Positions 60,466 to 63,699 of a stretch of DNA of 64,000 bases are shown here, one piece after another. Numbering within the stretch: position 1 is the first letter of the stretch; every line of letters begins with the position of its first letter. Where the stretch lies: assembly GCF_016595435.1 (NCBI RefSeq), contig NZ_JAENIJ010000013.1:1-64000 (forward strand), given 5' to 3'. Source of the DNA: Luteolibacter pohnpeiensis (GTDB taxonomy: Bacteria > Verrucomicrobiota > Verrucomicrobiia > Verrucomicrobiales > Akkermansiaceae). The notes beneath the pieces are model-generated. The model had not been told where the DNA came from. It made no database searches and saw nothing but the letters and a program-made list of their open reading frames with translations. A program made the translations under genes and the position numbers.

Positions 60466-63400
60466 TCAGTCGGTGGCCACGATGTTCAGGATCTTGTTCG
60501 GAATGTGGATGATCTTTCGGATCGTCTTGCCATCGGTGTATTCCTTCACCCGTGGGCATTCGAAGGCAACGGCCTTGACCGCTTCTTCGTCCGCGTCCTT
60601 GGGCATCGTGATCCGATCGCGCAACTTGCCGTTCACCTGAATGACCAATTCCACCTCATTGCGCACCAGCGCGGCGGGGTCGAATTCCGGCCAGCTGCTT
60701 TCGGAAAGCAGCGCGGTCGATTTTCCGATCCGGTCGCGGATTTCTTCCGTCAAATGCGGTGCGAACGGATTCAGCACGGCGAGGAATTGAGTGAACTCTT
60801 TCAACGGCACCACTTCCACTTGGGTGAAGGCATTGGTGCAGACCATCATTTGGGAGATCGCGGTGTTGAAGCTGAGTTTCTCGATGTCTTCGCCGACTTT
60901 CTTGATCGTTTCATGAACCACGCGCAGCAGTTCCTTGTCAGTGCATTCCACGTCCTGGACTTTGTCGGTGAGCTTCCATTCACCTTCGCCATCCTGCTCG
61001 AACGCGACGCGCCAAACCCGGGCAAGGAAGCGGGAAACGCCTTCCACGCCCTTCATCTGCCATGGCTTCACCTGTTCCAGCGGACCCATGAACATTTCAT
61101 AAAGCCGCAGCGAATCCGCGCCATACTCGGAAACCACATCGTCCGGGTTCACCACGTTGCCGCGCGATTTGGACATCTTCTGATTGTCCTCACCGAGAAT
61201 CAGCCCCTGGTTGACCAAGCGCTGGAATGGTTCGGGAGTGCGGACGTGGCCGAGATCGAACAAGACCTTGTGCCAGAAGCGGGCGTAGAGCAGGTGAAGT
61301 ACGGCGTGTTCCGTACCACCGACGTAGAGATCGACCATTCCAGGTTTGTCATCGCTCCAGTATTCCTCCGCTTCCTTGGAGATAAAGCGCTCGGAATTAC
61401 CAGGATCGCAGTAGCGCAGGTAATACCAGCAGGAGCCGGCCCATTGCGGCATGGTGTTGGTTTCGCGCAGCGATCCATCGGGCAGTTCCACCCAGTCGCG
61501 CGCTTTGCTCAACATCGGATCAGGCGTTCCGGTCGGAGTGTAGTCCTCCAATTCCGGAGCCAACAACGGCAACTCGGCATCCGGCAAAGGATGATGCTCG
61601 CCGTCCTTCCAAGTGATCGGAAACGGCTCGCCCCAGTAGCGTTGGCGGGAGAACAACCAGTCGCGCAGCTTGTATTGAACGCGGCGCTTGCCTTTGCCTT
61701 CTGCCTCCAACCAGTCGATCATTTTGGCTTTCGCTTCGGCTGTTGGAAGGCCATCCAGGAAACCTGAGTTGATGGCGAAGCCATGTTCGCAATAAGGGAG
61801 CGCGGGCGTCCCGCCCGACTTGGAAGACTGTGGCACAGGCGTCCCGCCTGTGGTCTGCCTCACATAAACACTCGACTTGCTTGCATCGATTCGTGCCTTC
61901 GATGGGTTCTCTTCGATATAAGCAATCAGTGTCTCGAGCTGAGCCTGCGAGCGCACGATCCGATCATACGACTCATCCTGCCAAACAGATCCCGTTTTCC
62001 CAAGTGCGTGGTTGATTTCCTTGGCGCTGAAACTTTTCCAGGAATGCGTGATTTTCGACAGATCTTCTCCCGGGAAAATCCGAATGATCACATGCACATG
62101 ATTTGGCATCACGGCGGATGCGATCAGCTCATAGCGCTCGCCATCAAAATGCAGCAATGCGCCATCCACAATTCTGCGGATGCTGGGTTCACTCAAAATG
62201 CATTCGCCCTCGCCGGCATCGAGCCATCGTTCGATTTTTCCGCCGAAGCGTGAGTGGAATTCCTCCTCAAGTTCCGGCGAATGCGGTTCTGGATGTGCGG
62301 CGATCCAGGTGGCCTTCTGCTCTTGGAGTTCGTTCAATTTTCCCATCGGCAGGCTATCCGCCAAACGCCAGGTGATGAAATGGTAACGACCTTCTTGTTG
62401 CCAATGGGGGAGGTTGCGGCGTGTTTTTACAACTTCGCCACCATTGGAGATGGTAGGAAATTCGGCGTCTGTCACCACAGGCGGGACGCCTGTGCCACAT
62501 TCTTTTTCCTTTCCAACCACTGCCTTGATCGGCAGCTCAAATCGCTCGGCGAATTCAAAATCCCGTTCATCGTGTGCGGGCACGGCCATGATGGCGCCGG
62601 TACCGTAGCCCATCATGACGTAATCTGCGATCCACACCGGGATGCTTTCGCCATTTACGGGATTGATTGCGTAAGCTCCGGTAAAGACGCCGGATTTGTC
62701 TTTGTTCAGGTCGCCGCGGTCCAAATCGGACTTGGAGGCACAGGCTTTTTGATAGGCTTCAACTGCCTCTTTTTGCTCAGCAGTGGTGATTTCCGGCACG
62801 AATGGATGCTCGGGCGCGAGCACCATGTAGGTCGCTCCGAACAAGGTATCGGGACGGGTGGTGAAAACGGTAACGGTGCGATCGCCGATGGTGAAATCGA
62901 CCTCCGCGCCTTCGCTGCGGCCGATCCAGTTTTTCTGCAGCATCTTGATGCCGTCCGGCCAATCGAGCGTTTCCAGCTCATCGATCAAGCGTTGCGAATA
63001 CTTGGTGATGCGGAACATCCATTGGCGCAACGGGCGACGCTCGACAGTGTGGCCTTTCGATTTCCACTCCTCGACTTCCTCGTTGGCCAAGACCGTGCCG
63101 AGATCGGGTGACCACCAAACAGGGGTGTCGGCGACGTAGGCCAGACGCACCGCGTCGATTTCAGCGCGGCTCCAGCCTTTCGCTTCCAGCTCGGAAACCG
63201 GCTTCGCCTGTTGCGCGTTTTCGTCGTAGTAGGACGAATACAGCTGCAGGAAAATCCACTGGGTCCAGCGCACGTATTCCGGATCGGTGGTGGCGATTTC
63301 GCGATCCCAATCGTAGCCGAAACCGAGCGCCTTCAACTGGCGGCGGAAATTTTCGATGTTGGCCGCCGTTGTGATCGCCGGATGCTGGCCGGTTTTGATC

Positions 63401-63699
63401 GCGTATTGCTCCGCAGGCAGACCGAACGAATCGTAGCCCATCGGGTGCAACACGTTGAATCCTTTCATCCGCTTGTAGCGGCCGATGATGTCGGTGGCGG
63501 TGTAGCCTTCCGGGTGTCCGACGTGGAGTCCGGCCCCGCTGGGGTAGGGGAACATATCCAGGACGTAATACTTCGGCTTGGAGGGATCGAACCCTTCGTC
63601 GCCCGGTCCCGGGGTGCGGAAGGTTTTTTCAGCATCCCAGTGGGCCTGCCATTTTGGCTCGAATTCGTCGAAGGGGAATGGTTTGCGGCGGTCGGACAT
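60466..63699 (-). CDS. leuS: Leucyl-tRNA synthetase with in-frame transposase insertion
   Basis: The frame encodes 1077 residues, about 230 more than usual LeuRS. The synthetase parts are complete: [11 protein letters not shown] (HIGH motif, near 54-63), the CP1 editing domain ([28 protein letters not shown]), the [13 protein letters not shown] block and KMSKS at 841-845. Residues 401-636 (708 bases) are foreign and form a RAYT-type HUH transposase. They sit in a loop after CP1 that already varies in length among bacteria (E. coli has a long insert there). Removing them leaves 841 residues, a normal length. Both junctions keep the frame, with no stop or frameshift, so the gene is likely still functional as a fusion. 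Leucine charging is essential, which supports this. Confidence 0.93.
61803..61817. repeat. REP-like palindrome, leuS right side, outer copy
   Basis: CGGGCG, loop TCC, CGCCCG: a shorter relative of the full REP nearby. Translated as part of leuS, just before Cys637, where the synthetase sequence resumes. Confidence 0.7.
61829..61854 (+). repeat. REP sequence, right of the transposase
   Basis: A 26-base REP whose core CACAGGCG-TCC-CGCCTGTG forms a perfect 8-bp stem. Its exact inverted copy lies at 62474-62499 on the other side of the transposase domain. Confidence 0.85.
62474..62499 (-). repeat. REP sequence, left of the transposase
   Basis: The same 26 bases as at 61829-61854 but on the opposite strand, so the two REPs flank the transposase in inverted orientation, as in a REPIN. 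In the fusion protein this copy is read as CGTGVPPV. Confidence 0.85.

Follow-up and report, generated by a model that had tools for sequence, protein, structure and literature searches.

A RAYT transposase and its REP ends in frame within the leucyl-tRNA synthetase gene, and the recurrence of such insertions in other host genes

Inteins and homing introns occupy set sites in conserved genes, occur sporadically, form lineages linked to their sites and carry a nuclease, while elements of the IS200/IS605 kind combine a Y1 transposase with subterminal hairpins. The closest described systems are the REPtrons, in which genes for REP-associated tyrosine transposases (RAYT or TnpAREP) are flanked by repetitive extragenic palindromes (REPs) (PMC3733652, PMC8266576, PMC6006769). 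In the passages of these papers considered here, free RAYTs are housekeeping-like and incapable of self-propagation (PMC3733652), TnpAREP is regarded as domesticated (PMC8266576), and a few unexpectedly long proteins were dropped as fusions or annotation errors, with in-frame REPs described inside tnpAREP genes of subclass 2.4 (PMC6006769). The passages on intragenic REPs in PMC3733652 state that these encode 20–30 amino acids, and clusters of them 43–82, recall the Rickettsia palindromic elements (RPEs), and give Opitutus terrae, a verrucomicrobium, as the richest in intragenic GTAG REPs; they mention no transposase (RAYT) gene inside a host gene. Here we describe a gene from Luteolibacter pohnpeiensis (first 64,000 nt of contig NZ_JAENIJ010000013.1, hereafter the window) in which a RAYT and its REPs are read as part of leucyl-tRNA synthetase (LeuRS), together with its counterparts in other genes and phyla.

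Positions 60466–63699 on the minus strand form a single open reading frame (ORF) of 1077 codons plus stop, with zero internal stops, that encodes a complete LeuRS and, within it, a RAYT accompanied by inverted palindromes; its product matches the profile TIGR00396 (leuS_bact) with 979.5 bits (cut-off 548.4). The N-terminal part of LeuRS (residues ~1–395; 62515–63699, minus strand) comprises the catalytic N-half together with the greater part of the editing domain and aligns to Thermus thermophilus LeuRS (1h3n) up to residue 365, and the C-terminal part (residues ~637–1077; 60466–61791, minus strand), with KMSKS and the anticodon-binding domain, resumes at 1h3n residue 376. Relative to 20 leuS genes lacking a RAYT, the insert falls between the LPI.xVV block (here LPIKAVV) and AxNSGFLDG, at residues ~396–636, and what we take to be LeuRS motifs, such as HVGH, are legible on either side of it. 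The sequence-only reading of this locus had proposed a RAYT in frame within an otherwise complete LeuRS, in a loop already variable in length among bacteria; the ORF and the leuS_bact and Y1_Tnp matches bear out the former, and the latter is also supported. No second leuS, which that reading had named as a point to check, was found in the same genome (4.67 Mb, 254 contigs, 98.84% complete, so that absence is not absolute); the search brought to light a second in-frame RAYT, inside ispG.

Judged from its sequence, the inserted domain (residues 426–604; 61888–62424, minus strand) is a Y1-family RAYT with an HUH motif, His-Val-His at residues 534–536 (62092–62100, minus strand), and a single, presumed catalytic tyrosine at residue 594 (61918–61920, minus strand). 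Y1_Tnp (PF01797) matched residues 522–598 with 36.9 bits (cut-off 23), and 4er8, the structure of a RAYT in complex with a REP hairpin, was the best match both in a sequence-profile search (E 1.5e-8) and in Foldseek with the model of the insert (rank 1, E 4e-7, TM 0.38/0.55). The profile NF047646 (REP_Tyr_transpos) gave 57–62 bits on the window insert, under its curated cut-off of 80, which other fusions pass (L047 with 84.0 and L084 with 86.4 bits; G and L numbers denote genomes and loci of our survey, and G000 the genome of the window). In the AlphaFold2 model of the insert the core is well predicted, with most ten-residue blocks above a pLDDT of 85, and the REP-coded ends are unstructured, with pLDDT below 50. 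The prediction for the whole fusion reached a mean pLDDT of 54.5 and a pTM of 0.31 from an alignment that held just three LeuRS rows.

Two inverted arms bound the RAYT domain: the one at the 5′ end in gene sense (62474–62504, minus strand) has a GTGGC tag and palindrome, ACAGGCGTCCCGCCTGT, and the one at the 3′ end (61824–61854, plus strand) is its inverted copy, 97% complementary. The flanking inverted REPs of the earlier reading are thus confirmed, at 31 nt each instead of the 26 bases it claimed. Folded as DNA, the window REP forms a hairpin of −10.2 kcal/mol (z −4.8), and none of 200 shuffles was as good. Next to the 3′ arm lies a third palindrome with a GGAGC tag (61797–61817, plus strand), of the type that bounds most other leuS elements, and it is possibly the remnant of an earlier occupant. 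The tags of the window are GTGGC and GGAGC, not the GTAG that is commonest among REPs, and those of other elements are GTAGC, GTGGC or GGAGC. In the frame used, the terminal hairpins contain no stop, and the protein is predicted to be unstructured there. Among 48 fused RAYTs, 40 have inverted tag-plus-palindrome ends that exceed the 99th percentile reached by single-base shuffles.

The insert shares with REPtrons the HUH Y1 fold (4er8), the flanking inverted tag and palindrome and, in some genomes, a REP family elsewhere; it differs from them, as presented in the cited passages, in that REPtrons are free genes, whereas here the reading frame makes the RAYT part of another protein, with set sites and replacement. 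The free-standing, housekeeping-like inheritance attributed to RAYTs is accordingly not what the fused ones display. Like the intragenic REPs and RPEs of the PMC3733652 passages, the window insert is in-frame palindromic DNA in a coding gene, a class of hosts that includes tRNA synthetases, but those encode repeats only and this one holds a RAYT domain of 179 residues. Elements of the IS200/IS605 kind have in common with it the Y1 transposase and the hairpins near the ends; here, however, the insert shows a RAYT domain alone, without a separate transposase gene, and its ends are REP-like. Set sites, sporadic presence, site-linked lineages and a nuclease are shared with inteins and homing introns (exceptions in set sites being L076, valS and alaS), but the enzyme is an HUH transposase and not a homing endonuclease, neither a splicing domain nor an intron was found, and the insert apparently stays in the protein. 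Among the matches listed from the open-licence literature we found no report of RAYTs embedded in host enzymes, which does not prove novelty, and filters that discard transposases as too long may conceal a real type of element.

Equivalent fusions recur in other genomes. Fused RAYTs were abundant in our query alignment, and the family and named sets overlap, so the proportions in this survey are not population frequencies. The 97 genomes of the family gave 137 listed RAYT matches, 48 of them in frames longer than 500 codons. Loci were grouped by their flanks and one protein per group was named, which assigned hosts to 46 of the 48: metH (17), leuS (9, window included), ispG (8, that of the same genome included), alaS (4), hsdR-like (3), carB (2), adenosine deaminase-like or ada-like (2) and a TPR protein (1). 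Left out of this count were L085, a weak match (E ~8e-4), and L086, with the RAYT at the very end of the frame and probably free. A phylum sample comprised 288 genomes, of which 88 gave a match; among the matches listed, 49 of 150 rows lay in frames above 500 amino acids, and frame lengths were two-peaked, with 7 of the 150 between 320 and 500. On named contigs, the RAYT was in a frame of more than 500 amino acids in 37 of 80. Hosts were assigned to 32 of these 37 from the best-matching family or from a BLAST comparison with the first set, several of them under the family cut-off, leaving L140, L160, L164, L165 and L169 without one: hsdR-like (5), Eco57I-type methylase (4), valS (3), two each of carB, leuS, ada-like, cca and pglX, and single cases of alaS, priA, xseA, nspC, MmeI, an SNF2 helicase, DUF1156, a phospholipase-D/DrmD-like helicase, a radical SAM protein and an ADH-MocA protein. 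According to their titles, the named records come from Verrucomicrobia, Lentisphaerae, Kiritimatiellales, Planctomycetes, Chloroflexales, Bacteroidota, Ignavibacteriales, Nitrospirae, Methylomirabilis and Proteobacteria. On these matches the element is a recurrent one, with about 20 kinds of host gene in several phyla. The earlier view of an essential enzyme that carries a RAYT is therefore right for the single case, which is not a lone oddity.

Within a gene the inserts tend to share their site. All nine leuS inserts, from five genus groups, are at one site, the eight ispG inserts are in one loop, and the RAYT of metH is at position ~1043 of the profile in 21 of 22 rows. Reading 35 metH loci of the genus set, we found a RAYT at 1043 in 17 and at an additional site near 923 in three; G403 and G404 have one at both sites, in a single ORF of ~1425 codons. 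Host labels mapped onto a tree of 63 RAYTs take 12 changes, versus 37.3 when shuffled (none of 200 shuffles was as low). The ispG RAYTs (eight rows) form one clade (SH-aLRT support 99), as do those of carB, ada and alaS (two rows each), one clade apiece, and the 923-site RAYTs of metH make up their own clade (three rows, 99), two of them sharing a gene with a 1043-site RAYT. RAYT rows with short matches, two of the four from alaS among them, were left out of the tree and of the motif counts. Overall, RAYT lineages largely follow the insertion site, and within one gene the site is mostly shared.

The leuS host tree runs mostly by genus (G019, which goes with G076, is the exception) and requires at least seven gains or losses of the insert. 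Empty versions in relatives, which the sequence-only reading had proposed to look for, are represented by the 20 leuS genes without RAYT mentioned above, among others; L120 was counted as empty from its junction. For leuS, the identities of host and insert show no correlation (Spearman 0.04), for metH a weak one (0.27), and the RAYT of the window leuS groups with one from a different genus (support 96). In metH, the hosts of G105 and G069 are 93.7% identical and their inserts 90.0%, whereas the hosts of G105 and G097 are 96.6% identical and their inserts 50.4%. Between G097 and G069 the left flank is 95.0% identical over 300 nt, with the last 60 nt identical, and the right flank 93.0% over 300 nt, with 83.3% in the first 60 nt. 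As these flanks are nearly identical and the inserts they enclose only 52.6%, with different REPs, elements have been replaced in situ at the metH site. Traces of former or reduced elements also occur. The unfused leuS of G034 retains a short in-frame remnant that equals the right REP end, that of G045 (L104) has at the same leuS site a RAYT-less, REPIN-like inverted pair of GTAGC REPs, ~120 nt and in frame, and the metH of G395 contains an apparent RAYT remnant, internally deleted with the frame kept.

Two further loci are worth recording here. The ispG of G112 (L133) has an apparent truncated RAYT remnant followed by repeats coding for Ala-Ala-Ala-Thr, with the frame kept. The leuS of G073 (L107), from a four-contig assembly, is in two overlapping frames of 272 and 664 amino acids, which may reflect a frameshift, an error or recoding.

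Some fused RAYTs are connected to REP families elsewhere in the genome. The REP of the metH RAYT from G069 and G105 has 39 copies in each of these genomes (up to two mismatches; control 0), several of them as close inverted pairs. Of the four RAYT matches listed for G069, the one in metH alone bears this REP at its ends, which suggests, without proving it, that the fused metH enzyme drives the REP family in that genome. As a counterpoint, the same REP also has nine matches in G101, five in G090 and one in G000.

We consider it probable that these inserts are REP-RAYT-REP mobile elements of the IS200/IS605-REP kind, which live translated and unspliced in host proteins and spread in a homing-like manner. 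The basis for this, at the level of sequence, is in-frame carriage, the lack of an own stop and mostly of a near start, a recurring host loop, intact host halves, replacement, REP ends in pairs and an active site that is conserved, with low dN/dS. An in-frame ATG within 45 codons upstream is found for 25 of 77 fused RAYTs, versus 39 of 48 free ones. Shine-Dalgarno-like sites, which precede 1 of 77 and 3 of 48, respectively, are too few to be informative. The host gene would provide promoter and ribosome binding, and the RAYT, tethered in the fusion, would act on single-stranded REP hairpins as occurs with IS200/IS605 and TnpAREP. The element would then reach empty or otherwise occupied alleles at the same site, probably via uptake of foreign DNA; occasional loss or shortening would leave in-frame remnants, and RAYT-less REP or REPIN copies would be spawned. 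A seat in an essential gene would protect the element, because frame-breaking changes would cripple the host. The protected home and the expression linked to leuS that the sequence-only reading put forward would fit this picture. The wider proposal, autonomous elements formed by HUH transposases that in their usual state are lasting, translated domains of essential proteins, homing to one loop per gene with hairpins as linkers, free of splicing, expressed and shielded by the host and feeding genome-wide REP and REPIN populations, is tentative, and we see the case for it as nearly balanced.

Several observations weigh against the mobile, homing-like interpretation. On the host tree the fused leuS genes need 7 changes versus 7.9 for shuffled labels, a distribution like that expected by chance. 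Inverted ends do not exceed the 99th percentile in 8 of the 48 fused RAYTs, and that none of 77 fused RAYTs is followed by a stop is a consequence of selecting long frames. Sites are not fully constant: in the metH of G087 (L076, residues ~1080–1330) the RAYT is ~35 residues upstream of the usual site, although by sequence it clusters with the metH RAYTs, and in distant taxa a second site is seen for both valS and alaS. The RAYTs of leuS (3–4 changes) and metH (3) are not single clades, and all trees come from quick searches, with SH-aLRT as their sole branch support. Inspection of the leuS, metH and ispG junctions by eye showed no target sequence in common, so homing by the enzyme itself is an inference. 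G097 has 50 matches to the REP of G069, though its own metH RAYT, the sole one compared, bears another; likewise, the window REP was not found as a genome-wide family and is present just at the two leuS ends, so the window copy has seeded no REP family. Lastly, the named set often has restriction-modification and BREX-type genes as hosts (L156, L143, L201, L175, L151, L207, L139, L142, L153 and others), and in hsdR and Eco57I-type hosts the identities of RAYT and host are alike, which fits co-inheritance. Thus, the hsdR fusions L047 (G036) and L153 (Methylomirabilis) are 75% identical in host and 75% in RAYT, and Eco57I-type hosts of 38–42% identity have RAYTs of 43–56% in five of six pairs, the sixth having 60% and 78%. 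There may be two regimes, with a steadier pairing of RAYT and host in restriction enzymes.

This pairing, which persists across phyla in hsdR and Eco57I-type enzymes, would also be expected if the RAYT were a domesticated domain, that is, a lasting DNA-binding or nicking domain with a new function for the host enzyme or its regulation, kept for the benefit of the host. Low dN/dS and invariant catalytic residues likewise agree with domestication. Of seven pairs compared, three were usable, three saturated and one, between unlike elements, gave 0.169; the usable pairs gave dN/dS values of 0.080, 0.102 and 0.038 for the RAYT versus 0.074, 0.046 and 0.051 for the hosts. All 44 inserted and all 19 other RAYTs with full-length matches share the HxH motif, a Lys, a Trp and the Tyr without exception, and selection seems to have kept the active site of the fused enzyme. 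Nevertheless, leuS and metH carriers have insert-free relatives, near-identical metH hosts hold unlike RAYTs at the same site, and the host enzymes are unrelated and have no need in common; we therefore regard domestication as unlikely. The new role suggested by the sequence-only reading consequently fits leuS and metH poorly, in which gain, loss or replacement of the insert leaves the host gene in place, and finds some footing in those restriction enzymes in which RAYT and host look co-inherited.

It is quite improbable that protein splicing, RNA splicing or proteolysis takes the insert out before the enzyme functions. The linkers are predicted to be disordered (pLDDT below 50), which makes cleavage possible. 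No intein family, and thus no Hint or splicing domain, was found with Pfam at E 0.01, which makes an intein unlikely; a group I or II intron or an IStron is also unlikely, as in 12 fusion loci nothing in Rfam, intron RNA included, reached the gathering score. The single sub-threshold Rfam match in the window insert is to an sRNA family, and an open frame would be unnecessary for an RNA intron.

Slightly less credible still is a single ancient insertion per gene, followed by vertical inheritance with many losses and fast evolution of the insert. The RAYT clades tied to a site and the similar inserts of some congeners (G065/G094, G105/G069) are in keeping with it. It is, however, strongly disfavoured because of the metH replacement pairs, in which hosts sharing 96.6% enclose inserts sharing 50.4% while another pair retains 90%; additionally, host and insert identities are uncorrelated in leuS, and the window leuS RAYT pairs with that of another genus.

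An artefact or a pseudogene, by misassembly across repeats or a dead leuS, has next to no probability: REPs are repeats and this copy rests on an assembly of 254 contigs, which leaves some ground for the assembly error considered in the earlier reading, but nine leuS from five genus groups share the site, equivalent fusions occur in one-contig genomes (metH in G090, ispG in G076 and G048), dN/dS of host and insert is low where measured and a second leuS was not found, and the shared site and the one-contig fusions rule out an artefact as the account of the whole pattern.

How RAYTs persist without apparent self-movement is an open question in the cited passages, and the fused lineages, which visibly replace one another at set sites, offer a testable case for it. 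They suggest that a parasite can inhabit an essential protein without splicing, and they indicate natural sites for domain insertion in LeuRS, MetH, IspG, CarB, ValRS and restriction enzymes.

MetH also receives an insert of another kind. The proteins of G111, G395 and G405 (L216:66-3845, plus strand, residues ~431–766; L220, L222 and L223) have an in-frame insert of ~250–335 amino acids with a P-loop. It lies between two B12-binding domains and matches Pfam Zeta_toxin with 41 bits in L216 and 21 bits in L220; no RAYT was found within it in L216, L220, L222 or L223. The metH of the window's own genome (G000:C111:102179-106164) is split, with the profile match up to ~325 in a separate frame of ~370 amino acids and the remainder in a second ORF. 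This split is common to many congeners, and in some the gene is a single frame.

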